A stretch of DNA of 64,000 bases, taken from the NCBI GenBank assembly GCA_963920705.1, contig OY987232.1:6265200-6329199 (forward strand). The letters are read 5' to 3'. The position numbers and the translations under genes were made by a program. Shown here one piece after another: positions 36,335-56,406 of the stretch (positions are counted from its first letter, which is position 1; the number at the start of each line of letters is the position of its first letter). Under the pieces are notes generated by a model. It saw only the letters and a program-made list of their open reading frames with translations, was not told the origin of the DNA and searched no databases. Source of the DNA: Odiellus spinosus (lineage: Eukaryota > Arthropoda > Arachnida > Opiliones > Phalangiidae).

Positions 36335-37682
<1,348 letters not shown>

Positions 37683-39770
37683 ATGCCAAAAGGAAGGTAC
37701 AAGCCATTGTCTACCCTGTCCTCACGTCATCGAGCTAGGCTAATTAATGCTGCTACAAAAGAAACGCAAGATGAAATTTGTATGCAAAACATTCTACATA
37801 ACGAAGAGAGTAGCAATCATGAATCTACAAATAGCTCTTCAGAAATCGATAGCGATAATGCAGCGGATATCGGAGAAATTATTGAATCTTTAAATGACTC
37901 GGAAGAAGAAATCAATGAATTTCAAGGAGAAAATAATAATATTGAGGATACAGAGCTTACAGCTGATAATGATCAAGATTATTTTGAAAACCTTCAAGGT
38001 AACGATGCTGTTCGTTTAAGAGCATGTCTGGCAAGATGGGTTACTTGCTTTGGAATAAGCAAAAATGCTGTTAGTGGCCTGCTGAAAATCTTAAAAAAAC
38101 ACAAATGTTTTAACGAGCTTCCAAGCGACTCACGTACGCTATTATGCACTCCTAGAACTTCTATAGTAGAAGAAATGTCACCTGGTCATTACTTTCATTT
38201 TGGAATGGAAGCAGGTATACTCTACACAGTCCAACGAGAACACGATTTAGCATCGACGATCCGAGTCTTCAAAATATTGATTAACATCGATGGTTTGCCA
38301 ATAGGAAATAGCACCACCAGCAACTTTTGGCCAATATTAGGTGCAATTTCAACAGTAGCAAAATCGAAGCCCTTTGTTATTGGGCTATTTCACGGCTTAA
38401 GCAAACCGAAATGTTCTGATCAGTTTTTGTCTTCTTTTGTAACTGAGGCATCGCTTTTAATTGAAAATGGCATTATAATTAACGGTGAGCATAAAATTGT
38501 CGAAGTATCAGGGTTTATCTGTGACACTCCAGCTAGAGCATTTATCCGTAAAGTCAAAGGACATAACGGCTACTATGGATGCGATAAATGCACTCAGGCA
38601 GGAATAAGACGCCGGAAAAGGCATTGCTTCCCACTGACAGAACATATTGAGTTAAGAACAGACGCTAACTTTAGAAATAAATCTCAGGCGGGCCACCACC
38701 ATGGAACTAGTATTTTGGAAAACCTTAATAATATTGATATGATAGATGACTTTCCTTTAGATTATATGCATCTTGTTTGTTTGGGGGTTGTTAAAAAGAC
38801 ACTGAAATTATGGATGGGGGCTGAAGGAAAAAATGCCCTTTATAAATTTAGGCCTGACCAGATATTGGTAATCTCTAGTCACTTGGAAAATTTGGCTTCA
38901 GTAACTTGTTCAGAATTTGTAAGAAAGCCACGATCATTAAAAGATGTTGACAGATTTAAAGCCACTGAATTTCGTCAATTTTTGCTCTATTCTGGTCTAC
39001 TAGTTTTACAAAATGTTCTTCCTAAATCTCATTATGAGACTTTTAGAACATTAAATGTAGCAATTCGAATTCTTGCCACGCCAAGGCAAACAGTTGAAAT
39101 GATTGAGTTTGCGGAAAATTTACTGCAGTACTTCGTGCAAATGTATGGTGTACTTTATGGCAAACACCTCATTTCTTATAATGTACATGGTTTACTGCAT
39201 TTAGCTAGGGATTGTTTGAAATACGGGCATTTAGATTCGTTTAGTGCCTATCAGTTTGAGAACTATCTTTTTACCCTAAAAAATAAAATTTCTAATGCGG
39301 GATATCCATTGAAGCAGGCAATAAATCGAATTAGCGAAGAAAGGCGAATAAATGGTACGTTGAAAGCTAGAGATGAAATTACATTTCATATGATTCATGG
39401 AAATGGTCCTCTTTTAGAGGGCTGTACTGACCCTCAATATAAAAAAGTCATTCTGTCGGAATATCAACTCTCAAACTCTAAACGTGATAACTGCTGTATT
39501 TTAAATGACTCATCAGTCATAGTGATAGAAAACATAGCTACCTCTGAAAATGACTGCTCAAAAATGTTCATAGTGGGAAGAAAATTTATGACTGTGCAAG
39601 ACTTTTTTATATCTCCGTGTCCATCTTCCAAAGTTGGTGTGTTCCAAGCATCAAAATTATCTGCGCTATTAAAATGGCCTCTTCACCTAGTCGTAGCAAA
39701 AGCTATGAAATACCCTCTAGAAAGCACAAATTCAAATGTGATAATGCAACTACTTCACAACCCATTATAG
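37683..39770 (+). CDS. EnSpm/CACTA-family transposase
   Basis: This is an uninterrupted frame of 695 residues if translation starts at the ATG at 37683 (MPKGRYKPLS...), which directly follows a splice-acceptor-like sequence. A start 15 codons upstream is also possible. The N-terminus is basic, then strongly acidic (residues about 40-110, many Glu, Asn and Asp). The core carries the conserved blocks GFICDTPARAFIRKVKGHNG, YYGCDKCTQAG (a zinc-binding-like CxxC) and DDFPLDYMHLVCLGVVKKT, equivalent to the 'D.MH..y.G..k' motif of Tnp2/EnSpm transposases, followed by KATEFRQFLLYSGLLVL and a long helical region. The family catalyses cut-and-paste transposition. The absence of stops suggests recent activity. 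Confidence 0.8.
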   Translation: MPKGRYKPLSTLSSRHRARLINAATKETQDEICMQNILHNEESSNHESTNSSSEIDSDNAADIGEIIESLNDSEEEINEFQGENNNIEDTELTADNDQDYFENLQGNDAVRLRACLARWVTCFGISKNAVSGLLKILKKHKCFNELPSDSRTLLCTPRTSIVEEMSPGHYFHFGMEAGILYTVQREHDLASTIRVFKILINIDGLPIGNSTTSNFWPILGAISTVAKSKPFVIGLFHGLSKPKCSDQFLSSFVTEASLLIENGIIINGEHKIVEVSGFICDTPARAFIRKVKGHNGYYGCDKCTQAGIRRRKRHCFPLTEHIELRTDANFRNKSQAGHHHGTSILENLNNIDMIDDFPLDYMHLVCLGVVKKTLKLWMGAEGKNALYKFRPDQILVISSHLENLASVTCSEFVRKPRSLKDVDRFKATEFRQFLLYSGLLVLQNVLPKSHYETFRTLNVAIRILATPRQTVEMIEFAENLLQYFVQMYGVLYGKHLISYNVHGLLHLARDCLKYGHLDSFSAYQFENYLFTLKNKISNAGYPLKQAINRISEERRINGTLKARDEITFHMIHGNGPLLEGCTDPQYKKVILSEYQLSNSKRDNCCILNDSSVIVIENIATSENDCSKMFIVGRKFMTVQDFFISPCPSSKVGVFQASKLSALLKWPLHLVVAKAMKYPLESTNSNVIMQLLHNPL

Positions 39771-43576: not shown

Positions 43577-44525
43577 CTATACTATACTATATTTGCATTT
43601 AATGAGCAGAAAACCGTAAAAGAGCCCCATTATATCTTGGCCGTTGTAGTCTTGCAGCATATACAAATGTGAAGTCTTGTTGTCTACTACTCCATTTATT
43701 TTAAATACCTCGACTGAGAAATTGGCTTCGAAACCTTTAGCGAAAACCAAGCGAAGATAACTAATTCTGACATGGTCCCTGGTTTTGAATTTAGCGGGCT
43801 TGATTTTAAGTTTTTTAGCAGCCCCGTAGATATTACGATAAACTTGTAAAATATTTCCACTTTGTACTTGATCCATCGCCATTTTAATCGTTGAATGCTT
43901 GGCCCAGTTATATGCGGCGATTAGGGTTTGAAGAATATCAATGTAACGCCGGATATTGTTATGCGTGAAAAAACGAAACATTCTCCCTTTGATAGTGTGA
44001 TTAAGCCGTTCAATGAAGGGGGCGTGATGCGGCTCCGATACCATAGCGGTAAATTTAATATTACTTTTCTTTAGCAAAGGCTTGCACTATAGAATTTAAA
44101 AACTCCGTACCGCGCGGGACGCCATCGGTGAAAATCTCCTTCAGGCCTCGAACGACCTCATCTCCGCTCTTCCTCTTTAAAGGGATTCTGTAATCTTTTC
44201 GCGAGAAGCAATCGATACCCATTAACAAGTATCTATACCCGTCGTTATATTTTGCTAGCGACTGCATATCCGCTGAGTCTATTTCTAACCTGTCGCCAAT
44301 ACTGGTCACGGGGATTTTTCTTCGTTTAAATTTCTTTCTAGCCGTTACATGGAGGGTATAAGCTTCAGAACTCTCCAAAAATTCTTTCACGCTCTCCCGC
44401 GAAATGCCCTTATCTTCAACGGCCTGGTATAATGATTCGATACTCGAAAATGAAGCCGGATTACTTTCATCAAAATAAATTCCTTCTAGGGTGTTGATTT
44501 GATCGTCTTGAACGTTAACTATTGT
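43577..44525 (-). pseudogene. Polinton retroviral-type integrase (INT)
   Basis: The N-terminal part has the YTLHVTARKKFKRRKIPV block. The catalytic core shows the first Asp (IDSADMQSLAKYNDGYRYLL) and GTEFLNSIVQAFAKE. A second frame (44077-43577) continues with FIERLNHTIKGRMFRF, which carries the catalytic Glu, and a chromo-like or SH3-like tail (ARDHVRIS-type KFKTRDHVRI). The segment that should hold the second catalytic Asp before RGTEF is missing (it reads FTDGVPRGTEF). A frameshift and stop lie at 44061-44077. The protein inserts Polinton ends into DNA; this copy cannot be active. Confidence 0.85.
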
Positions 44526-44723
44526 TGGGTCGTTTTCTAATTTGGTTTACATTTTTTCTTGTAACTTTCGCGGGCGGCTTTTACCATTTACGTAATCTTA
44601 ATTTTAAGGGCGTAGAACGGGTAGGTGTTGCGGAGGGAGTTTTCGTTGTTCGCGCTTTGGGGGCCATACCACTAATGATGGGATTACCGAGGCGTGTTTT
44701 ATTGTTTTCGGGGGATGTATACT
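44526..44723 (-). other. ATPase 3' end and spacer left of the gypsy element
   Basis: The first codons left of the gypsy LTR complete the Polinton ATPase gene, whose stop codon is at about 44699-44701. The rest, down to the integrase, has no clear gene. The 4-bp gypsy target duplication tact is at 44720-44723. Confidence 0.6.
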
Positions 44724-45040
44724 TGTAACTGTGCACTTAACTATTTACTAATAATCAGACAGTTAACTAGTTTAAAAAGGCAATTTAATTATCAACAGGA
44801 CTTTTAAGTACAGAACTAAGCATTGGGTAGAACTGGTATCCTGGGCATCGACCGGGAATCTGCCACGAAGCTGGACTGAGGTCTTCCTTTTATCCTAGGT
44901 TATCACATGGTCTCACAGGGTCGAGCAGCCAGGGTAGGTGCAGGCTCTTAGGGTAGAACTCCATGGGTAGATGCAGGAGCCAACGCTGGAAATAAGCCCT
45001 TATTCCCATGCCTAGGGATCCCTTTACCATCCCCGTTACA
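44724..45040 (-). repeat. Gypsy 3' LTR
   Basis: This 317-bp repeat has termini tgtaactg and cgttaca in plus-strand reading. It is the downstream LTR relative to transcription. It differs from the other LTR at two sites (cacgaagctg against cacgaggctg, and tccttttatc against tcctttcatc). Confidence 0.95.
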
Positions 45041-45260: not shown

Positions 45261-45926
45261 TTATCGGGCATGACGAACAAACTCATAAGGAGGTTTTGAA
45301 ATTGGTTTCGGTGATATTGAAAAATTATCCACAGTCAAACCCTTAGAATCGAAAGGATAGGAATGCAAATATGCTTCTATTTGCCTCAAGGATCGTAATT
45401 TTTCTTTCACCTTATCCGGGGTATAATAGTAAACATCTCCCACACGCGATGATGGTTGTTTCCTTAACACCACTTCCCTAGTCCAACCATGGAAAAATGG
45501 CAACTGCAAATCATGCGATATACCAGTGGTGTCCAACTCCTCAACCTCCACACACCTAGGTTCGGGAATTACCAAAACTTCATCCATAAATCTAACTCTA
45601 CGTCGAGGGTTACAATGTCGCATACGTAGGTTGACACCACTCTCATCCACCGCCTGTGGCCCAACTCGTTCCTCCATCGCTTCCTCGCTCGGAAACTCAA
45701 CCACAACACTCGTTCCACCAGCCTGAGTATGGTATGTCTCTCGAACCACACGACTGCGTAGCGTATAACGAGGTGGATCTAAATCTATCTCTTCGTCGTC
45801 AAACCGTAACTCATTTTCCAATGGAATCGGCGGAACTAATTCATTGGTTATAGAATTTCCCTGGGTTGCCACCACCTGTATAGATGGGTCTACCCGCGCA
45901 ACTGGTTGTTCCTGAATTTCCAACAC
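45261..45926 (-). CDS. Gypsy pol C-terminus carrying a methyl-CpG-binding domain (MBD)
   Basis: This 221-codon frame continues the integrase frame after a single TAG that replaces a CAG-like codon of the neighbouring repeat. Residues 1-20 are the last unit of a 17-residue tandem repeat. Residues 40-135 are acidic to basic linker. Residues 142-208 (45303-45503) form an MBD: FFHGWTREVVLRK, a short loop, GDVYYYTP, then EKLRSLRQIEAYL and LTVDNFSISPKP. By alignment with MeCP2, the methyl-CpG-contacting Arg111, Asp121, Tyr123 and Arg133 correspond to R155, D164, Y166 and R178 here, all kept. Chromoviruses carry a chromodomain at this position of integrase. A targeting role toward methylated DNA is inference. 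Confidence 0.8.
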   Translation of the reverse strand: MLEIQEQPVARVDPSIQVVATQGNSITNELVPPIPLENELRFDDEEIDLDPPRYTLRSRVVRETYHTQAGGTSVVVEFPSEEAMEERVGPQAVDESGVNLRMRHCNPRRRVRFMDEVLVIPEPRCVEVEELDTTGISHDLQLPFFHGWTREVVLRKQPSSRVGDVYYYTPDKVKEKLRSLRQIEAYLHSYPFDSKGLTVDNFSISPKPISKPPYEFVRHAR

Positions 45927-46475
45927 CTATATAGGTGGGTCTACCTGCGCTGCTGGTAGTTCCCGAGTTTCCACCACTGGTATAGAAGGATCTACCTGAG
46001 CAACAGTTTGTTCCTGAGTCTCCAAAACCACCGTATTCATACAGAGTTTTAATTTAGAAATATGCCACGTACCAGCCAAGGCTCCTGTCTCTAAGTTCAT
46101 TATCAGATAGGAAACCGGGGACACTTTCTCAACAACTCTAAAAGGACCTTCCCAATTAGGAGCTAGTTTAGCGCTAAATTTCGCAGCCGCATTTGAAAGT
46201 CTATGGCCAGACTTCCAGACCAACTGTCCTACTTCTAGTTCACTTCCAAGGTAGTTCCGATCATAGAAAAATTTCTGTTTTGCACTGGCAACGCTATTTA
46301 TTTCTTGGGCCATATCAATTGCTCGTTGCCATTCTCTTAACGGACCTTGGTCATAATCCAAAATTGCTACAACCTCCTGATCCGGAATCCCCGCAAAAAC
46401 TCTCATCCCAAGGAAGCGTAGGCTCATAACCATGGTGAAGGTAAAACGGAGAATATCCGGTAGAACTGTGTACAA
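45927..46475 (-). CDS. Gypsy integrase C-terminal part with GPY/F module
   Basis: The frame carries the end of the integrase (QEINSVASAKQKFFYDRN) and the GPY/F module (FSAKLAPNWEGPFRVVEKVS followed by YLIMNLETGALAGTWHISKL), which is typical of Ty3/gypsy integrases. It then runs into two units of a 17-residue repeat (ETQEQTVAQVDPSI, ETRELPAAQVDPPI) and a TAG. It is joined to the upstream integrase frame by a one-base shift near 46400. The first residues of the open frame (to about 46400) are out of frame with the protein. Confidence 0.8.
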   Translation of the reverse strand: MYTVLPDILRFTFTMVMSLRFLGMRVFAGIPDQEVVAILDYDQGPLREWQRAIDMAQEINSVASAKQKFFYDRNYLGSELEVGQLVWKSGHRLSNAAAKFSAKLAPNWEGPFRVVEKVSPVSYLIMNLETGALAGTWHISKLKLCMNTVVLETQEQTVAQVDPSIPVVETRELPAAQVDPPI

Positions 46476-47646
46476 CGCTATTGACTGCTAACTGAATTAA
46501 AGGCAAATGGGCATCCCAAGTAGTATGGACATTCCCAGCGTAAATACTCATTATCTCCTCAATTACTCTATTACACCTCTCCGTCATGTTAGCCTGGGGA
46601 TGGTATGGAGACACGAACTTTAGTTTTATTTTCAACATCATACACAACCGTTTCCATAATCCTGAAATAAACTGGGGCCCATTATCCGACAACAAGGCAG
46701 ACATAACACCGTGGCGAGACACATACTGCAATAGAACCTTACATAATATTAGGGCGGTAACACTCCTAACAGGGAAAACCTCTACGTATTTGGTAAAGTA
46801 ATCTACCATTACGACTAAAAAACGGTTCTGCTGCTTCGTCACTGGAAGGGGACCCATTATGTCTATCCCGACCAAATCTCCTGGATGAATTTTATGAGAA
46901 GGAATCATTAACCCTGGCTTCTTCGTATTTCTACTTTTATACCGTTGGCAAGTGTCACAATTCTGTACGTATTTCTGAACCAAGGAATACAACCTAGGAT
47001 GGTAATATTTAGCCTGAACTCTCATGTATGTTGCTGTACGGCCTCTATGACCTGAGAGAGGGTGATTATGAAAAGCCTGCATTAACCGAGGTATTAATTC
47101 TGTAGGCACCACCACTTTAGCTGGCTTAAAACCTTCCGCCTTTCTGTAAAGCAAATCGTCTTTAATACAGTATACCTTAGAATCTCCGCCTCTTTCTAAC
47201 TTGCCCTTTATTTCGCTAAATTGACCCTCTAACAACTGTGCCTCTTTTATCTCTACCAAGGCAACATAATCCAGAGGTTGTCCAAGGTCTACCGGGTTAC
47301 ACACTGACATATTCAAGCGAAAGGCGTCCAAGGATTGATTATCGGGCATTGGAAGTGCTGATAAATCTGAACTTACATAATCGCTATCTATAACCTTAGG
47401 ACATACAACATCTAAGTCTGACACTGGGCATCTAGATAAGGCGTCGGCTACTAAATTATCTTTCCCCGCTCTATGCAAAATCTCGAATGGCATAAACTCC
47501 TGAAGCTCCAAGGCCCATCTCATAAGTCTACTTTTCTTATTTTTAAGCTTCAACATCCAACATAACGCTTGATGATCGCAAACTACGGCAAACTCCCTAC
47601 CTTCCACATAATGTCTGAACTTTCGTACAGCCTCTACTACTGCCAT
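46351..47646 (-). CDS. Gypsy RNase H C-terminus and integrase core
   Basis: The frame starts within RNase H (EGREFAVVCDHQALCWMLKL, HRAGKDNLVADALSR). It continues into integrase: the zinc-binding HHCC region (HNHPLSGHRGRTATY ... CDTCQRYK) and the catalytic core with GIDIMGPLPVT (first Asp), LLSDNGPQF (second Asp) and HPQANMTERCNRVIEEIM (Glu). All three catalytic acidic residues are present. It is separated from the upstream part by one in-frame TAA (47673-47675 region), and the frame is lost near 46400. It acts in the pre-integration complex. Confidence 0.9.
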   Translation of the reverse strand: MAVVEAVRKFRHYVEGREFAVVCDHQALCWMLKLKNKKSRLMRWALELQEFMPFEILHRAGKDNLVADALSRCPVSDLDVVCPKVIDSDYVSSDLSALPMPDNQSLDAFRLNMSVCNPVDLGQPLDYVALVEIKEAQLLEGQFSEIKGKLERGGDSKVYCIKDDLLYRKAEGFKPAKVVVPTELIPRLMQAFHNHPLSGHRGRTATYMRVQAKYYHPRLYSLVQKYVQNCDTCQRYKSRNTKKPGLMIPSHKIHPGDLVGIDIMGPLPVTKQQNRFLVVMVDYFTKYVEVFPVRSVTALILCKVLLQYVSRHGVMSALLSDNGPQFISGLWKRLCMMLKIKLKFVSPYHPQANMTERCNRVIEEIMSIYAGNVHTTWDAHLPLIQLAVNSVVHSSTGYSPFYLHHGYEPTLPWDESFCGDSGSGGCSNFGL

Positions 47647-47673
47647 GGCCTCTTGTTCCGGGGTACTATATCT

Positions 47674-48081
47674 TTATTCTGCCGGCTTAAAGAGTTTACT
47701 TGTATATCCCAAGGAAACCTCGACACCATTCTGAATTTGTGATAACATGCCGCCCATTCCAATTCCACTAGCATCTGTTGTGATTATAAACTTTCCATTT
47801 GGATCGGGAACTTGTAACAAGACTGCCTGGGAAATAGCTGTTTTTAAACTCTGAAACGCGTTTTCTTCTGTGTCTCCCCAACGAAACTTTTGGTTTTTTC
47901 GTTTTAATATATTTAAAGGGGCAGTATAGTCTGCATAATGGGGAATAAATCGTGAATGAAAACCACACATGCCAAGGAAGGACGACACCTGTTTCATGTT
48001 ACGAGGACGTGGAAATTCTTTAATCGCCCGAACTTTCTCCGGATCTACTTCTACCCCTTCAGCACTTACCAAGTAGCCCAA
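47674..48081 (-). CDS. Gypsy RT thumb/connection and RNase H N-terminus
   Basis: The frame begins LGYLVSAEGVEVDPEKVRAI, the conserved end of the gypsy reverse transcriptase. It passes FLGMCGFHSRFIPHYADYTA and enters RNase H with FIITTDASGIGMGGML, where the Asp of TDAS is the first catalytic residue. It is offset by one base from the upstream RT frame at a run of seven T in minus-strand reading (about 48099-48105). It ends at a TAA that interrupts an otherwise continuous RNase H. Confidence 0.85.
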   Translation of the reverse strand: MGYLVSAEGVEVDPEKVRAIKEFPRPRNMKQVSSFLGMCGFHSRFIPHYADYTAPLNILKRKNQKFRWGDTEENAFQSLKTAISQAVLLQVPDPNGKFIITTDASGIGMGGMLSQIQNGVEVSLGYTSKLFKPAE

Positions 48082-48709
48082 AACCGAAACCTTAGGAACC
48101 CCAAAAAAACATTAACAACGTTTAACGTAAGACCTGCGTGTTTAAATTGAGAGAATACATAACGTAAAGCCGCTAAATGGTCAGCCCATGTGGTACTAGC
48201 TATCACTACATCGTCAAGATAAATCCCAATACCATATCTACGAGCAAATCGTAAGACTTTATTCATCAACCTCATGAACGTTGCCGGTGCCCCTTTCAAA
48301 CCGAACGGCAAAACTAACCACTCGAACTTGCCCTCTCTAGTTACAAAGGCAGTTTTCTCTATGTCCTCTGGAGCCATGGCAACCTGCCAATAACCAGACT
48401 TTAGGTCTAATTTAGTAATATACCTAGGCTTTCCCATGTTGTCTATAATGTCATCTATTTTGGGTATGGGATACGGGTCATCTATCGTAACACTATTTAA
48501 CTTAGTTATATCAACGCACATCCGCTTCTCCAAGGTATCTTTCTTAGGAACTATTATAGTAGGAGATGCCCATGGACTATTAGATGGCCTAATCAACCCC
48601 TTTCGAAGTAGATCCTGAACTTGCCTATCAATTTCTTCGCTAGCGGCTCGACTATGCGAATAAGGTTGTCTCCATACTGGAACAGTCCCTGGTTTTAATC
48701 TGAATGTAC
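48066..48709 (-). CDS. Gypsy reverse transcriptase, fingers and palm
   Basis: From just inside the LINE insertion the frame reads FRLKPGTVPVWRQPY, then LIRPSNSPWASPTIIVPKKD, RMCVDITKLN, ITKLDLKSGYWQVAM (palm Asp), FEWLVLPFGLKGAPATFMRL and IYLDDVVIAS, the YxDD catalytic box. All are canonical for Ty3/gypsy RT. The part N-terminal of FRLKPG lies on the other side of the LINE at 53111. A one-base shift ends the frame shortly after the palm. The enzyme copies element RNA into DNA. Confidence 0.9.
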
Positions 48710-48710
48710 A

Positions 48711-49294
48711 ACCGCGGATTGAGGCAGTTAAAGTCTGACCGTCAACTAATGTGGCTTTCTTTTTCTACTTTGTACTAGATTAATCACAAAGATAGGAGCT
48801 TCAAACGCCGGATGTTCGAGGAAAAATAACTATCTACCAGCAAAAATACAAGATACTACAACTAATATTCGTTTTTTCCCCGAACATTGCGCTTCTCGGA
48901 AGAATAACAGAAAATAGAATAAAAAAATAAAATAAAAAACAAGGACAATATGCTACCGATCTACGAACTTTGACCTCATTAATCACAAAGATAGGAGCTT
49001 CAAACGCCGGATGTTCGAGGAAAAATAACTATCTACCAGCAAAAATACAAGATACTACAACTAATATTCGTTTTTTCCCCGAACATTGCGCTTCTCGGAA
49101 GAATAACAGAAAATAGAATAAAAAATAAAATAAAAAACAAGGACAATATGCTACCGATCTACGAACTTTGACCTCGTACGTGGTGTAATCATCGCTATCA
49201 AACAACAAAGATCCACAACTCTTGCGACCGCGGATTGAGGCAGTTAAAGTCTGACCGTCAACTAATGTGGCTTTCTTTTTCTACTTTGTACTAG
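48711..49294 (+). promoter_or_regulatory. LINE 5' UTR with A-B-B-A repeat architecture
   Basis: A 68-bp unit A (accgcggattgaggcagtta to actttgtactag) occurs identically at 48711-48778 and 49227-49294. Between them are two tandem copies of a 199/198-bp unit B (48779-48977 and 48978-49175) that differ by one A in an A-run, and 51 bp of unique sequence. Repeated 5' monomers act as promoters in some LINEs such as mouse L1. The near perfect identity of the copies argues for a recent origin, for example by template jumping. The promoter role here is inference. Confidence 0.75.
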
Positions 49295-49371
49295 GTAATA
49301 TAAGAATTTCTTTGTTTTGTGTATATTGACTCGTGGTCGCAAGAGCTTAAACTAGAAGAGCTAAAACTATA

Positions 49372-50152
49372 ATGGCTAATTTAACTAGAACGTTATCGAT
49401 TGGTGATGTGTTAACGCAGCTAGCGGAAATGGAAGCGCGGCAAAGCGATAAAAGCAAAAAAATGTTTGATGCTCTTGCAGGTATTAATTCAGCGATAGAT
49501 TTAACCAATAAGACCTTAGAAAAAGCAAACTTAAAAATTAATAACATTGAGAAAAAACATGGGGAATTTGACGCTAAGCTAATGACTATCCAAGGGAAAC
49601 TGGAAGAATTCGACAGCCTTAATCATAGGCTCTCTGACATTGAAGAAGTTGTCCCACGTATTGAGACTGCTCTACGAAATGAACTAAGAGCAACCACTGA
49701 CAGATTAATATCCATAGAGAGCTCACTTAGACGCAATAACTTGGTCCTATACGGACTACCAGACTTAGAAATCGAATCTAGGGAAAACCTATCAAAGAAA
49801 ATTAACAATATCCTTAGTAAACTACTTAATTCAGAGATAGTTGTCCAGCCCGATCACATCCAGCGACGTGTTGTTTTTAGGGAAAAAAAACCAGACCAGT
49901 CCTTATAAAATTAAAAAATTACGAAGATAAGCTAGCTCTACTCAAGATAAAATATAAATTAGAGGGTCAAAATCTATATTTAGATCCTGATTACACACCA
50001 TACGAAATGGATATTAGATATCATATCAGACAATTTATTAAACAAACGAAACCACAAAGTGTAAAATGGCTATCAGGACACAGAATTGAGATTAACGAAG
50101 ACATATGGTACTATGACGTAGGTCTTAAAGAAGTTAGAAAACAAACAAAGTG
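49372..50152 (+). CDS. LINE ORF1 protein (coiled coil, L1-like RNA-binding type)
   Basis: The frame starts MANLTRTLSIGDVLTQLAEM. A long heptad-like coiled coil (about residues 25-115, rich in Leu, Ile, Lys and Glu) precedes SLRRNNLVLYGLPDLEIESR, a block typical of ORF1p with an RRM-like fold (Transposase_22-like) in L1 and CR1 elements. The first frame closes at 49908. A one-base shift in the run of eight A near 49883 restores a second frame to about 50152 with KLALLKIKYKLEGQNLYLDP. ORF1p binds LINE RNA as a trimer-type chaperone in the family. Confidence 0.8.
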
Positions 50153-50239
50153 ATATGATTGACCTACTGCATTTGTTTTTGTTTTTTCTATTTATATATA
50201 TATTTTTTTTATTACTAAATTACTCTACTATTACCTAAT

Positions 50240-50854
50240 TTGTCATCCTTTATGAATATTTTAAGTCATAATATACGAAGTGGAGAGTGTAACTTGGGAA
50301 AATTGACTGCTGATTTGGTTGCGGGAGATCTCCCACCGATAGAAATCTTTGCATTAGTTGAAACGTGGTTTAAATTTGATTATAGTATGCATATGCCAGG
50401 GTTTGTTTTCAGTGGCACAAATAGACTTAATAAGGGTGGTGGTGGTGGTGTGGGCTTTTATGTTGGATGCTCAATTGTTTATGATGTTGTTGCGGGGGGC
50501 TGTATTAGCAACCCCAATATCGAGGCGCACACCATTAAAATATAGCCCCCCCCCCAGGGCTGCTGGTCGGATTTCCTTGAGGGATTGGACAGAATCATAA
50601 TGGGCAGTGGGGGAATAGTGGGACAAAGGCTATTATTGGGAGATATTAATCTTGATCTTCTTGTAACAACACCAAAAATGCTGGCCTTTAAAGATACAAT
50701 GTTGAGTTTTGGATTAGATCAATGGATAAATGAACCAACAAGAGTGACAAAAACCTCAGCTACGCTACTTGATATTTGTTGTTCGAACTTTAGCCTGAGA
50801 CATAGGGTTCTTCATGACATGGATACCACAGATCATCGACCTATTTTCATTTGA
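50240..50854 (+). pseudogene. LINE ORF2 endonuclease (APE type), internally deleted
   Basis: The APE-type endonuclease appears in two pieces: FMNILSHNIRSGECNLGKL with IFALVETWF, and RLLLGDINLDLLV, TLLDICCSNF and DTTDHRPIFI, which correspond to the GD.N, LD.i..S and SDH motifs. The junction around 50545-50580 contains a run of C and a stop, and the usual YRPP-containing central part is absent. The endonuclease that nicks target DNA is therefore broken. A single-base change of frame and a stop at 50852-50854 separate it from the RT frame. Confidence 0.8.
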
Positions 50855-52953
50855 ATAAAACAGACGACAAAATTAGAAATCTAAGCTACAAAAATTTAAC
50901 TTCATTTAGGGGACATGTTCAACAAATTAATTGGTCGATACTTTATAGAATAAATGACGTCAATGCTGCTTATAAGTATTTTCAAACCACGTTACTAAGT
51001 GTATATGAGTCGAGTTTCCCATTTATAAAACTGAGGAAAAATAATTCGCAGACATGGATTAATAGAGAACTTAAGGATAGGATTCGGGATAAGAATAAAT
51101 TGAAAAGAATCTCAGTACGTTATCCAACACCCAAAAACATAGAAAAATATCATACGGCAAGAAATCAATGTAATAATGCAGTGAAAAATACTAGGAATTC
51201 TTTCTATAAGAAGAAACTATTAGAAGCGAATGCATCACCCAGACTTACTTGGAAAACTATAAATACTTTATTGAATAGGGACACGAATAATAATACTAAG
51301 CCAGAGAATAAAACTCCCGATGATTTTAATCACTTCTTTACCTCAAACATGAATTATCTTGACTCGGGAAATATTCCGACCTATAGCAATTTACCCATAA
51401 ACCCGAAGACAATGGCATTATTTAATATTGATCAATGGGAGGTCTCGACAGTAATATCGGCCCTCAACTCCGGATCTGCGTGCGGGGTGGATGGGATAAG
51501 TGCAAAAGCTCTAAAGTTTGTTAACCAATATATTTCGTTTCCAATCGCTTATATTATCAACCTAGCTATGCAATCCGGAGTGTATCCTGATGATCTTAAA
51601 AGGTCAATTATAATTCCTATCTATAAAAAGGGAGATAAAAATGAGCTAGGGAATTACCGCCCTATTTCCCTCCTCTCGATTGTTGCCAAGATATTTGATA
51701 GGATACTATACAATAGAATACTAAGTTTCGCCAATAAACACAATCTAATATCTGATCGACAATTTGGATTTAGAACAAATTGTAACACTGAACTCGCCCT
51801 GACAGCAGTATATGAACGTATATTGAACTCACTAGATAAAAGTAAATATGTCATTGGCGTTTTTCTCGATCTTAAAAAAGCATTTGATTCAGTAGGACAT
51901 AAGTTACTAATGGCAAAGCTTTATAGACTTGGATTTAGAGGAAAGGCATACGATCTAATAGAATCATATATAACAAATAGAATAAGCCAGGTCCGGGTTG
52001 GAAAAATGCTTTCAAAAGAGTGTGGGATTGAGAGAGGCGTTCCACAAGGTTCGGTGATGTCACCATTGCTATTCAATATTTTTATTAACGATATTACAAA
52101 ATGTGTCCCGGCCAACTTACTTACACTCTATGCGGATGACACTGGTTTATTTGAGGATGATCCAAGCTTAGAAATACTTGTAGAAAGAGTGAATATATAT
52201 CTTGACAAGATTAGAAAATGGTTGACGGATAACGAGTTGGAACTTAATATCGATAAAACTGAATATATCACTTTTCGAAACGTAAACAAGCCAATTCCAA
52301 TAAATCACCCTGGGTTGAAGATTGGCCAACAAGATATCAAAGAAGTTGACCATTATAAGTATCTTGGGGTATGGGTAGATTCACAACTCGCATGGCATAA
52401 ACAAGTTGACCATATTGCCCCAAAACTGGCTAGAACCATATATGTAATTGCAAAAAATAAATGCATTCTTGGACAAAAAGTCTTAAAGCAATTATACTTT
52501 ACCCTCTTCCAGTCCAATTTGATGTATAGCATTTCGGTATGGGGAAATACTGCCAAATATAATATTAGACGACTATTCCTTCTACAAAAACGAATGATTA
52601 GAGTAATTGCTGGTGCAAAGTATCTAGACCATACTAAACCATTATTTAGTAAAATGAATCTAATGGATATCTATAAACTATATTATTATTCAATGATGTG
52701 TTTCATATATAAGAGTATTAATATTTATAGTCCAACGCGTAACCTTTTCAAAATAACGAAAGAAGATACTAAAAAACACGCATTACGTCATAATAAGATA
52801 ATTATAATACCGAGTGCGCGAATTAACAAGAAACAGAAATCTTTATTTGTTGATGGACCAAAACTATTCAATGAATTACCAGATAACATTCAAAAAGCCA
52901 AAAATATTAAGTGCTTTAAATTTATGCTAAGGAACTTTTTATTAACACAATAA
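50851..52953 (+). CDS. LINE ORF2 reverse transcriptase
   Basis: The frame of about 700 codons includes the whole RT domain. It contains IPIYKKGDKNELGNYRPISL, the palm block VFLDLKKAFDSVGHKLLMAK, GVPQGSVMSPLLFNIFIND and LTLYADDTGLFED, with the YADD catalytic box. Downstream come NIDKTEYITFRN, YLGVWVDSQLAWHKQVDHI and the C-terminal LFNELPDNIQKAKNIKCFKF tail. The frame is open to the end, so the RT half could still be functional. RT copies LINE RNA at the nicked target. Confidence 0.9.
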   Translation: MNKTDDKIRNLSYKNLTSFRGHVQQINWSILYRINDVNAAYKYFQTTLLSVYESSFPFIKLRKNNSQTWINRELKDRIRDKNKLKRISVRYPTPKNIEKYHTARNQCNNAVKNTRNSFYKKKLLEANASPRLTWKTINTLLNRDTNNNTKPENKTPDDFNHFFTSNMNYLDSGNIPTYSNLPINPKTMALFNIDQWEVSTVISALNSGSACGVDGISAKALKFVNQYISFPIAYIINLAMQSGVYPDDLKRSIIIPIYKKGDKNELGNYRPISLLSIVAKIFDRILYNRILSFANKHNLISDRQFGFRTNCNTELALTAVYERILNSLDKSKYVIGVFLDLKKAFDSVGHKLLMAKLYRLGFRGKAYDLIESYITNRISQVRVGKMLSKECGIERGVPQGSVMSPLLFNIFINDITKCVPANLLTLYADDTGLFEDDPSLEILVERVNIYLDKIRKWLTDNELELNIDKTEYITFRNVNKPIPINHPGLKIGQQDIKEVDHYKYLGVWVDSQLAWHKQVDHIAPKLARTIYVIAKNKCILGQKVLKQLYFTLFQSNLMYSISVWGNTAKYNIRRLFLLQKRMIRVIAGAKYLDHTKPLFSKMNLMDIYKLYYYSMMCFIYKSINIYSPTRNLFKITKEDTKKHALRHNKIIIIPSARINKKQKSLFVDGPKLFNELPDNIQKAKNIKCFKFMLRNFLLTQ

Positions 52954-53054
52954 CTTGTATATATAAGTTAAAAGGTTGTACATTATAACGTTAACAAGAA
53001 TTAACCACATAAATTAACTATGTAACTTGGAGACTGTACAAAGTGTGTACAAAA

Positions 53055-53083
53055 CGGCCTAGAAGTCATTCATGACTTGGCCG
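53055..53083 (+). other. LINE 3' UTR hairpin
   Basis: The sequence cggcctagaagtcat, a two-base loop and atgacttggccg form a hairpin with a three-base bulge, about 10 bp before the TAAA tail. 3' hairpins of this kind are recognised by the cognate RT in several LINE families. The LINE at 61 kb has its own, different hairpin at the same relative place. Confidence 0.6.
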
Positions 53084-53089
53084 TGAATG

Positions 53090-53752
53090 CTATAAATAAA
53101 TAAAATAAATATGATGTTGAACGATATTGGTACGACCCAATTTCCCCGAAAAAAGCTCCGAAAACTCCTGACTAAGTTCTGATAAATCCCACCGTTCATC
53201 CTCCGTTAACTGGCCTACATTCAGTGTCGAAAAATCTACCTTAGGTTTAGGGGGACCTAAAACTTGGTCACCCCCGGTTAATGTTGCTACCTCATCCCGT
53301 AGGTACACCAAAGGCAAAGTTTTCCCACAGTAACTAAACATGTTACGGTAATTATCTATCACGGCTCTCATATCGTCTAAAAGGCCCATTCCTAATGTAA
53401 GAGGAAATTCCAAATCCGGGACTACCTGAAATCTTACTGGCATTATCCCCATGTCCTCCCCAAAATCCACTTCTAAATCCACGTAACTTAAGGAATTACT
53501 CGTAAAACCTTTTTTCATCCACTGAACAGTCCGAGGCTTAGAAACCAATAAATTCATTAACCCTAAATCAGATAAAAATTCGCGTGTTATAATACATTGG
53601 TCGGCCCCACAATCTAAGAAGGCAATACACTCTTTATTCGATACTAAAATTCTAATCCCTTTCAACCTACTCTCCCCTAAATCCAAAACCGCGGAATTCA
53701 ACCTAACAACTGGGTCAATCTGAGATTCCCAAGCACCTTGCGACCCTACCAA
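53090..53752 (-). CDS. Gypsy aspartic protease and start of RT linker
   Basis: The retropepsin core is visible as CIAFLDCGADQCIITREFL, where the usual DTG/DSG active-site triad is DCG. This is followed by LEFPLTLGMGLLDDM, the second conserved part of gypsy proteases. The C-terminal end LSQEFSELFSGKLGRTNIVQ is the usual linker into RT. The frame is cut by the LINE after about 53111. It follows gag with a short overlap (53715-53764 region). The enzyme processes the polyprotein; whether DCG supports activity is not known to me. Confidence 0.85.
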   Translation of the reverse strand: MVGSQGAWESQIDPVVRLNSAVLDLGESRLKGIRILVSNKECIAFLDCGADQCIITREFLSDLGLMNLLVSKPRTVQWMKKGFTSNSLSYVDLEVDFGEDMGIMPVRFQVVPDLEFPLTLGMGLLDDMRAVIDNYRNMFSYCGKTLPLVYLRDEVATLTGGDQVLGPPKPKVDFSTLNVGQLTEDERWDLSELSQEFSELFSGKLGRTNIVQHHIYFIYL

Positions 53753-53763
53753 GGCACTGAACT

Positions 53764-54813
53764 CTAGTTTCCCGAATTAGATTCGAGAGGGCGAGGGACT
53801 GGGGTGTTATTAGATATCTGATTAACTCCCGACGGTAAGGAAGCCCTACCACCCTGGGACGAGACCGAAGAAAAACGAGGTCTCTGACCAATCCTAGATG
53901 TCCTAGGTGACGCCTGTAGTTGGGGGCACTCTCTACGAAAATGGCTTGAGCTCCCGCACAAAAAACAACCATTATTAGCATCTCCTCGCGTAATTGCGGG
54001 TCTAGAGCTTATTTGATTAACGGAACCAGTACGGGAATTATTCCCCATCGACCAAGGCCCTGAACCACGGTTTGACACGTTTCCACGGGAATTTCTTCCA
54101 AACCCTGAACTGCCAACGCTATTTCCCATATTAGTCAACCCATTATTGATTCCTTCCATATTTACCCCGCGTTCCCAAGCTGTCTGAATTCTTAAAATTT
54201 CCCGATCAAAATCTTCTAACGTTGTGCAACCATCCTCAGAAATCAATAACTGAACCATTGGCGGAACCTTGGAAAGCAAAAGCTTAACTAACTCGACCTC
54301 CACTAAAGAGGAATCTAATAACCGATTAAGGCCTACCATGCGTTTACGAAACATCCATAAATCCTCCCCTACATGTTGAGTGGCACTGTATAACGTGATT
54401 CGTATAGACTGTTCCCGATTCTGTGATAAATATCGAGTTTTAAAAGCCGTCGCTAAAGTGTTCCACGAAATATTTTCCCCATGCCTAAGAAAAAACTCTT
54501 CTATCCAAATCTTAGCACTGTCTGTAAAAATCAGAGGGCATAACACCGGTAAATCGTCCTTACGTATTTTGTGATATAAAACAAAATTCTCCAAGGTTTT
54601 CAAAAACAGCTTAGGGTCTTCCTGGGGGTCACCAGAGAACGTGGGCATTTTCATGTGGGCTATAAGAACAGCTGGAATGTCCCTGGGAACTCGTTCCTCC
54701 CCACTTAACTGATCCATATAATTACGGCTCGAAGACCGAACCCTGGAATCTAATGGCATGCCTAAATTCTCCGGAGGTTGCGAAAATAAAGGACAACTAG
54801 GTAATGGATTATC
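53764..54813 (-). CDS. Gypsy Gag with CCHC zinc knuckle
   Basis: This frame carries the Retrotrans_gag capsid region (MPTFSGDPQEDPKLFLKTLE, ISWNTLATAFKTRYLS, ESIRITLYSATQH-like RITLYSATQHVGEDLWMFRK). An Asn/Gly/Ser-rich linker follows, then one zinc knuckle CFLCGSSSHFRRECP with C-x2-C-x4-H-x4-C spacing and a basic Ser-rich tail. Gag assembles the particle and packages RNA. The apparent first codon (54814-54816) is GTG inside an overlap with the upstream frame, so a frameshift from that frame, or an internal ATG further down, is the likely way this part is translated. Confidence 0.85.
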   Translation of the reverse strand, partial: DNPLPSCPLFSQPPENLGMPLDSRVRSSSRNYMDQLSGEERVPRDIPAVLIAHMKMPTFSGDPQEDPKLFLKTLENFVLYHKIRKDDLPVLCPLIFTDSAKIWIEEFFLRHGENISWNTLATAFKTRYLSQNREQSIRITLYSATQHVGEDLWMFRKRMVGLNRLLDSSLVEVELVKLLLSKVPPMVQLLISEDGCTTLEDFDREILRIQTAWERGVNMEGINNGLTNMGNSVGSSGFGRNSRGNVSNRGSGPWSMGNNSRTGSVNQISSRPAITRGDANNGCFLCGSSSHFRRECPQLQASPRTSRIGQRPRFSSVSSQGGRASLPSGVNQISNNTPVPRPLESNSGN

Positions 54814-55454
54814 CACCCCTGCTCGAACTCATCGCGACCCGGCCGCTCTGTCCTAATCTGTTGTTCAATGTCCCGCTGGCGCTGTCGTGTCCTGTCCAAT
54901 TCGCCCTGATTCTCTAATTCCGCCTCAAAACGATCCCTCTGTGATAGAGAAGCCCCCTGATTCTGCCGCCTACTTAAATTCTCTGCCTCGTCTAGCTGTT
55001 GCTGAATTCGTTGATTAACAATATCCTCTAGACACGGAGTCTCATTTAAAACATTAACCTCCTCGGAAACATCTAAGGGGGGTTCAGGCAAAACTGGGGG
55101 CACCCGCGGAACCGTAGGCGCTGAACTGGGGTTCGGCAAAGTACGTTTACCCCGCATTAATTCTAACCGATCGCCTACACATGATGCCACAAAGCGCTGA
55201 ATCAAATTAAGTTCCTCCTGAGGATTCTTCCGCACATCAAGAACCCTACGATTACGAACTGGGTAATTCCTAGGCAGATTTAAAGTATCTCTACGATTCC
55301 TCCTTTGTACTGGTCTCCCTTGCAATTTAGGACTAAAAGAACCTGCATCACTAAACTGATTAAAAAACAACGGCCCAAATTTTAAAAAACAAAATCCAAA
55401 GAGACCCAGGCAAACCAAAATCGTCGCCACTACTATCCCTAAGATTGCCCACAT
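54762..55454 (-). CDS. Gypsy 5' frame with N-terminal membrane segment, probable Gag N-terminus
   Basis: This 230-codon frame starts MWAILGIVVATILVCLGLFG, a clear hydrophobic helix. It continues with a basic stretch (RPVQRRNRRDTL, NYPVRNRRVLDV), a Pro-rich part and a Gln/Arg/Glu-rich probable coiled coil (residues about 145-205). It overlaps the gag frame by 55 bases. It is either the N-terminal half of Gag, joined by frameshifting, or a separate small protein. A membrane-anchored or matrix-like role is inference. I recognise no family. Confidence 0.55.
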   Translation of the reverse strand: MWAILGIVVATILVCLGLFGFCFLKFGPLFFNQFSDAGSFSPKLQGRPVQRRNRRDTLNLPRNYPVRNRRVLDVRKNPQEELNLIQRFVASCVGDRLELMRGKRTLPNPSSAPTVPRVPPVLPEPPLDVSEEVNVLNETPCLEDIVNQRIQQQLDEAENLSRRQNQGASLSQRDRFEAELENQGELDRTRQRQRDIEQQIRTERPGRDEFEQGWIIHYLVVLYFRNLRRI

Positions 55455-56089
55455 GATTAGCCAAGGCTTCGCGAAAAACGACTTAAAACATTAAAAAAAA
55501 ACCTAATTAAAACTCTAAAAGTAATAGAAACCTAATCTAAAATTGAATATTCAAAAAAAATAAAAAGTAATAAAACACAATAATAATAAGAATAGTTAAT
55601 CGCAATTACCTTGACACTCCAAATAAAGAAAAAAAGAAAAAACTTCGCGGGCTTCTTACAAAACGAGCTACAAGTTCTACAACGATCTCCGGGCGAGAGG
55701 CAAGGAGAAAAAAGAGCGATAAAGAAAAAACGCGACAAAAACCCTTCACCGGGAATCACCGCGTGCTTTATCCCCAAATTACGTCACCACAACCGTCCTA
55801 GGCAGCCACGGAAATAAACCGCACGATCCTATTCAGTGCGTTCGGAACCAAAAACCGAGAGCTGGACTCCAAAGAATCTTCTAAGCTTCAGAGATGAGCA
55901 CACGCACATAAACTAGACGAGAACCAATCTTTCAGTTCACACCAAATAACTATTAAGTCAATTCCTCTTCAGATCAGGCGCGCACATATTTCAATCCAGA
56001 AATCACGAAAACTGGCAACCGAAAAACTTAGTGGTAAAAAAAAAAAAATTATCCCGAAATAACTGTTCGATCTCGGCGGTGGCTCCAAT
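55455..56089 (-). other. Gypsy 5' leader with primer-binding-site candidate
   Basis: The leader of about 635 bp between the 5' LTR and the first frame holds no convincing gene. Two bases inside the LTR, on the minus strand, tggagccaccgccgag begins with TGG as primer-binding sites do. I could not match it to a particular tRNA by eye. Confidence 0.5.
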
Positions 56090-56406
56090 TGTAACTGTGC
56101 ACTTAACTATTTACTAATAATCAGACAGTTAACTAGTTTAAAAAGGCAATTTAATTATCAACAGGACTTTTAAGTACAGAACTAAGCATTGGGTAGAACT
56201 GGTATCCTGGGCATCGACCGGGAATCTGCCACGAGGCTGGACTGAGGTCTTCCTTTCATCCTAGGTTATCACATGGTCTCACAGGGTCGAGCAGCCAGGG
56301 TAGGTGCAGGCTCTTAGGGTAGAACTCCATGGGTAGATGCAGGAGCCAACGCTGGAAATAAGCCCTTATTCCCATGCCTAGGGATCCCTTTACCATCCCC
56401 GTTACA
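56090..56406 (-). repeat. Gypsy 5' LTR
   Basis: This 317-bp repeat is the upstream LTR relative to transcription. It is followed on its outer side by tact (56407-56410), matching 44720-44723. Confidence 0.95.

Follow-up and report, generated by a model that had tools for sequence, protein, structure and literature searches.

Retrotransposons that carry a methyl-CpG-binding domain (MBD) are apparently already known, for the Copia superfamily. In 2019, de Mendoza, Pflueger and Lister (Genome Res 29:1277) reportedly described an MBD in arthropod Copia elements (CopiaMBD), its binding to methylated CpG and, as a proposal, the biased insertion or targeting that would follow from it. The second close analogy is given by the chromoviruses, which are Ty3/gypsy elements with a chromodomain in their integrase that reads methylated lysines of histones and steers insertion; this integrase chromodomain is said to be the subject of Gao et al. 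2008. A passage citing the 2019 work on CopiaMBD places copia elements in CpG-dense regions (PMC11721087), and a passage in another source refers to retrotransposons with DNA methyltransferases from de Mendoza et al. 2018, namely, Copia, DIRS and LINE elements (PMC12344493). In the literature searched, which lay mostly outside subscription journals, we found no description of an MBD in Ty3/gypsy elements, and the 2019 work may mention gypsy cases. Here, we describe a Ty3/gypsy element from Odiellus spinosus whose pol ends in an MBD. The domain now occurs in this superfamily as well, as a real and conserved module that was apparently acquired by independent capture.

A Ty3/gypsy element with an MBD at the C terminus of pol

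The window, by which we mean the whole stretch of 64,000 nucleotides that was analyzed, contains a whole Ty3/gypsy LTR-retrotransposon insertion that runs from 56406 to 44723 on the minus strand. It is bounded by a 5' LTR (56089..56406, minus strand) and a 3' LTR (44723..45040, minus strand) of 318 bp each, 99.4% identical to one another and accompanied by an AGTA target-site duplication. As is usual for Ty3/gypsy elements, the LTRs have TG..CA ends and the target-site duplications are short, both here and in the copy at L031/L051, where the LTRs are 100% identical and the duplication is AAAT. Inside the LTRs and on the same strand, gag with a zinc knuckle (53764..54828; Retrotrans_gag, 1.9e-5, above the cut-off; zf-CCHC, 0.0065, below it) is followed by the first part of pol, which includes an aspartyl-protease-like region (53090..53776; Asp_protease, 3.1e-4, under the cut-off), the reverse transcriptase (RT) (48066..48764; RVT_1, 1.6e-27), the N-terminal part of RNase H (47674..48111; RT_RNaseH_2, 2.9e-17), the end of RNase H together with the zinc-binding and core domains of the integrase (46351..47673; RT_RNaseH, 2.7e-19; Integrase_H2C2, 1.9e-19; rve, 6.4e-12) and the SH3- or GPY/F-like C-terminal module of the integrase (45927..46487). 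The order RT, RNase H, integrase, found in the window and at other loci, is that of Ty3/gypsy elements, as is the C-terminal module, of the kind named GPY/F, which SH3_Tf2-1 matches just over its cut-off (4.2e-7, 30.4 bits against 30); Integrase_p58_C matches the same minus-strand frame at 1.7e-4, under its cut-off.

This copy is broken. A 4.4-kb stretch (48702..53112, plus strand) splits the element, and stop codons and frame changes break pol. The interrupting stretch consists of a non-LTR retrotransposon (LINE), with an RVT_1 match of 3.8e-38 within 50818-52953 (plus strand), and short duplicated pieces; direct repeats lie inside it at 48711-49294, and it has no counterpart in the uninterrupted copy L031.

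Behind the GPY/F-like module, in phase with its frame and directly after it, with one stop codon between them, lies the C-terminal frame of pol (45261..45926, minus strand; 221 amino acids encoded by 45264-45926), which is composed of a linker and the MBD (45300..45506, minus strand; residues 141-209 of the frame). A preliminary description, made by reading the sequence, had proposed that this gypsy pol ends in an MBD and had named a profile search as the check; PF01429 matches with an E value of 6e-10 and 39.1 bits, against a curated cut-off of 21. The stretches quoted there as diagnostic, FFHGWTREVVLRK, GDVYYYTP and EKLRSLRQIEAYL, are all found in the domain. The residues equivalent to MeCP2 Arg111, Asp121, Tyr123 and Arg133 were correctly read as well and align as R, D, Y and R, where R111, D121, Y123 and R133 is the numbering that we take for the methyl-CpG contact sites. 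The position of the domain, after the GPY/F-like module, is likewise that of the chromodomain in chromoviruses, as had been said. Given that the same MBD protein sequence stands in uninterrupted pol frames of 1381 amino acids elsewhere in the genome, chance can be excluded. A homologue search with the 221-amino-acid piece returned 0 of 262 candidates at an E value of 0.001, a scan of IMG/VR with the 84-amino-acid MBD piece of L034 gave 15 pattern matches with 0 confirmed, and a single-sequence AlphaFold2 model had a pLDDT of 40, too low to be used.

With an observed-to-expected CpG ratio of 1.10, the window shows no general loss of CpG. Two further features of the window lie outside the element: a 718-amino-acid open frame at 37614-39770 (plus strand), without a Pfam match at E 0.01 and possibly a transposase-like gene, and two overlapping frames beside the 3' LTR at 43577-44546 (minus strand), which by reading resemble an integrase of another mobile element; the piece 44064-44546 (minus strand) had no match in Pfam.

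Distribution, conservation and exchange of the MBD in gypsy elements

A six-frame search of the 443-Mb genome (286 contigs) with a 99-amino-acid query, in which 150 of 293 candidates were scored, yielded at least 150 matches, many of them within long open frames. Twenty loci of 10 kb (L031 to L050) were picked for their long frames and hence are no random sample. All 20 contain a gypsy RT, the integrase, the GPY/F module and the MBD in that order, and in 18 the MBD lies inside a single open frame of 1,349 to 1,582 amino acids (three of them cut by the end of the locus), so the fusion to pol that the preliminary description had named as a check on family members is present at 18 of 20 same-genome loci chosen in this way; pol is split in L043 and L044. 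The C-terminal pieces of six of six other copies, from different families, also matched PF01429 above the cut-off. The LTRs of two other copies were sought with short upstream pieces, the second of which shows an LTR end only, and simple tandem arrays were seen in 2 of the 20 loci, which were set too far downstream for LTR pairs. Copies with an MBD have inserted recently, as two of them have LTRs that are 99.4% and 100% identical and 4-bp target duplications.

A search for gypsy RTs, with 150 of 1,098 candidates scored, allowed 149 of 151 RT places to be matched by position, and an RT was paired with an MBD, by position only, if the latter was located on the same strand 1.5 to 5.5 kb downstream. 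Among the matches listed, RTs at least 64% identical to that of the window have an MBD at no fewer than 31 of 42 places (at least 13 of 14 for frames of at least 1,150 amino acids), and RTs 45 to 55% identical to it have one at no fewer than 41 of 107 (at least 23 of 51 for such frames), where an RT without a listed MBD may still have one. A ten-copy family of 1,207 amino acids and some others look like gypsy elements without an MBD.

Additional open reading frames follow pol in some of these elements. A TatD-type DNase is encoded after pol at L034 (4833-6113, plus strand), L036 (5010-6065, plus strand) and L038 (2870-4198, minus strand), with PF01026 matches of 4.6e-33 to 8.4e-22. This frame is found in several MBD-bearing gypsy families, lies 5' of the 3' LTR in L034, and has an MBD 0 to 2.5 kb upstream at 47 of 86 typed TatD places (121 matches); in the family of the window, the 3' LTR comes shortly after the MBD, with no TatD-type frame there. 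No paper on a TatD frame in such elements was found by title in the literature search. The families of 1,570 amino acids have a frame of 941 to 1,031 amino acids after pol (L045, 1677-4499, minus strand; L047, 1534-4626, minus strand), which in L045 had no Pfam match at E 0.1. At L034 and L035, one MBD-bearing gypsy element stops where a second, distant one goes on, as if inserted, and the two loci resemble inverted copies of a single event.

To describe the conservation of the domain, we compared 25 distinct gypsy MBD sequences, excluding low-scoring pieces and those shorter than about 70 residues. The sites equivalent to R111 and D121 are R and D in 25 of 25; that of Y123 is Y in 23, with F in two; and that of R133 is R in 24, with L in copy L006. 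For eight of nine pairs, the dN/dS of the MBD was 0.109, 0.173, 0.298, 0.309, 0.199, 0.086, 0.087 and 0.292, of which 0.309, 0.199 and 0.292 come with a dS above 1 and are unreliable, 0.298 is derived from few changes, and those from 0.086 to 0.173 are the better values; the ninth pair was saturated. In close pairs, the dN/dS of RT and integrase is mostly below that of the MBD. Distances between MBDs correlate with those between RTs (r = 0.886, 10 elements) and between integrases (r = 0.870, 11 elements), with 0 of 5,000 permutations as high in either case, and the MBD is present in three deep integrase lineages that are 44 to 53% identical to each other. Taken together, the correlated distances, the three lineages and the dN/dS values indicate a single old capture of the MBD in gypsy elements, which would have been passed on mostly with pol and under constraint.

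Fourfold-site divergence along pol was determined for five pairs of elements. In L049/L050, it is 0 to 0.15 up to residue 1500 and then 9 of 15 sites in the final 48 codons; in L031/L034, it is 0 to 0.23 up to residue 1031 and then 10 of 17 in the final 46 codons. The pattern is reversed in L031/L033, with 0 of 77 sites over the final 167 codons and 9 of 20 in the GPY/F stretch. The rise is limited to the final 29 codons in L036/L037 (5 of 15) and is slight in L045/L047 (4 of 25 at the end). Given that relaxed selection on the protein does not raise synonymous change, this mosaic divergence is likely due to recombination between related elements, by which the part of pol that bears the MBD is moved.

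Copia elements with an MBD and the number of captures

When the genome was searched with the Pfam MBD model, of which 150 of 415 candidates were scored, at least 150 matches were obtained, 21 of the 150 in frames of 1,430 to 1,476 amino acids. The top match is a host exon, BAZ2 by sequence (BAZ2B, 8e-29). We also searched with the Copia RT model (RVT_2; 150 of 647 candidates scored). MBD places outside the gypsy type, referred to here as the other class, have a Copia RT just downstream at no fewer than 45 of 125 (e.g., G000:C8:18750234-18751325) and a gypsy RT upstream at 2 of 125 among the matches listed; on the plus strand, the starts of the MBD and the Copia RT are 327 to 429 bp apart. Copia elements of this kind are thus common in the genome. 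Since the integrase precedes the RT in the Copia gene order, an MBD just 5' of a Copia RT points to a second superfamily with an MBD behind the integrase. A separate MBD match within a Copia frame at L037 was rejected, with an E value of 0.038, under the cut-off, and an overlap with RVT_2.

Two other-class MBDs were read, L054, which is Copia by position, and L055, which has no placement. Both are nearest to MBD2/3 (7.4e-10 and 2.3e-12, respectively, versus 3.7e-4 and 1.4e-4 for BAZ2B). By comparison, a profile of ten gypsy MBDs, run against solved domains, scores best with BAZ2B (4.9e-11), with BAZ2A near, followed by MBD3 and MBD2 (about 2e-7). A small MBD tree, built on about 70 columns, unites L054 with L055 (0.84) and both with MBD3 (0.81), and a branch with a support of 0.68 separates all gypsy MBDs from BAZ2 and the MBD3/Copia types. 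BAZ2 was not grouped with the gypsy domains in this tree, so their likeness to BAZ2 is one of profile scores only. The tree mildly favors separate captures in gypsy and Copia elements; it does not favor an origin of the gypsy domain from BAZ2. The simplest reading is probably that of two captures, each behind the integrase, with modest support from the tree.

Proposed role of the MBD and comparison with known systems

Our preferred reading, to which we assign a probability of roughly 0.6, is that a gypsy lineage captured a host-type MBD as a C-terminal module of pol and kept it, and that this module would tether the integration complex to methyl-CpG DNA or chromatin, thereby biasing insertion. 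It starts from a domain that is established at this place, conserved, coinherited with RT and integrase and carried by recently inserted copies. Methyl-CpG binding, tethering and target bias would follow, as the best reading, by analogy with the chromoviruses and with CopiaMBD. Located behind the GPY/F-like module and joined to the integrase, or still linked to it, the MBD would hold the integration complex on DNA or chromatin with methylated CpG, and the choice of insertion site would be biased, an effect that the chromodomain has in chromoviruses and that was proposed for the arthropod Copia MBD. The preliminary description had also suggested that the element may choose its targets by their methylation, with methylated gene bodies in insects as a possible example.

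Against this reading stand the absence of general CpG loss in the window, the nearness of the domain to BAZ2 and a comparison of location between 36 MBD-bearing and 29 MBD-lacking full gypsy frames (27 and 16 families, respectively). By family, their neighborhoods are no different (P = 0.65 and 0.78). Per element, three of four comparisons were not significant (P = 0.18, 0.45 and 0.84), and the fourth, at least one gypsy-type MBD as a neighbor in 20 of 36 versus 7 of 29 (P = 0.02), is partly circular. By contig class, 25 of 36 MBD-bearing and 26 of 29 MBD-lacking frames are on large contigs, a marginal difference (P = 0.07). The CpG content of the 3' flanks of about nine insertions of the window family, taken without a control set, showed no trend.

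The alternative that survives best, which we nevertheless consider unlikely, is that the MBD tethers the integrase to chromatin without reading methylation, either by general binding to DNA, RNA or nucleosomes, like the TAM domain of BAZ2, or through a partner protein. The domain of BAZ2A/B is not known to read methyl-CpG, and it is to BAZ2B and BAZ2A, ahead of MBD3 and MBD2, that the gypsy profile is nearest; the replacement of the contact tyrosine by F in one lineage would also agree with such a tether. The contact residues as a whole argue otherwise: in the ten aligned gypsy MBDs, R, D and R never vary and Y is kept in nine, whereas in the BAZ2 exon of the host two of the four sites are occupied by E and C. 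A role in defense is quite improbable. Here, the MBD would bind the methylated copies of the element itself, or its nascent cDNA, and shield them from the silencing complexes of the host. MBD proteins being readers in silencing, such a decoy is conceivable, and several of these elements bear an extra gene, that of the TatD-type nuclease, but the MBD always lies behind the C terminus of the integrase in the gypsy copies read and just before the RT in Copia elements, and this position fits a role in integration better than shielding.

Two further explanations can be set aside. One is that a single copy picked up a piece of a host gene by chance and without function, for which the stop codon before the MBD and the other breaks in the window copy might speak. 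It is refuted by intact, diverged relatives, in which the domain stands within unbroken frames at many copies, occurs in three deep lineages and is under purifying selection, and with it the concern in the preliminary description that the domain might be an independently captured fragment. There is also next to no chance that a known CopiaMBD family was misread as gypsy: Copia elements with an MBD do occur in this genome, but the window element has a gypsy-type RT in the order RT, RNase H, integrase, instead of an RVT_2 preceded by the integrase and an MBD, a Copia RT follows 0 of 144 gypsy-type MBD places and a gypsy RT precedes 70 of 144 (among the matches listed), and the nearest solved relatives of gypsy and other-class MBDs differ.

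If the gypsy MBD does read methyl-CpG, retrotransposons would have arrived twice, by way of different parts, at one solution, and a mark that is usually thought to silence elements would also steer their insertion. Somewhat beyond our preferred reading goes a tentative and possible account in which Copia and Ty3/gypsy elements independently fused a methyl-DNA reader behind their integrase, each taking it from another class of host MBD (MBD2/3-like and BAZ2-like, respectively). In this account, the reader was kept by gypsy elements in three or more deep lineages, and related elements swap the 3' end of pol that bears it, so that insertion preference can evolve with the exchange of readers. Reading of methylation would then be a repeated and general answer to the problem of target choice. 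With Copia elements bearing an MBD, gypsy elements bearing an MBD and gypsy elements apparently lacking it, this one genome provides a natural comparison with a built-in control, in which two kinds of putative reader share one host and one methylome and it could be tested directly whether methylation attracts or repels insertions.

Compared with known systems, the window element resembles the methyltransferase retroelements in that both took up proteins of DNA methylation; those Copia, DIRS and LINE elements carry writer enzymes, whereas this Ty3/gypsy element carries a putative reader domain. The TAM/MBD domains of BAZ2A and BAZ2B (TIP5) are the closest solved sequences and have an N-terminal LPF..GW and a C-terminal NFS..P stretch in common with the gypsy MBDs. 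The preliminary description had set the latter apart from TAM/BAZ2-type MBDs, which is right for the methyl-CpG contacts, several of which BAZ2 lacks and the gypsy MBDs keep, and needs to be qualified for overall sequence, where BAZ2 domains are the nearest solved relatives. With the chromoviruses, the element shares a Ty3/gypsy pol and, going by sequence, a domain of the chromatin-reader kind behind the GPY/F-like module of the integrase; the domain is a chromodomain there and an MBD here, and the five pol pieces of the window had no Chromo match at E up to 1. CopiaMBD is, like the window element, an animal LTR retrotransposon with an MBD. It belongs to the Copia superfamily, whereas the window element is a Ty3/gypsy element with the MBD at the C terminus of pol, and the two Copia or other-class MBDs read here are MBD2/3-like, whereas the gypsy MBD profile scores best against BAZ2.
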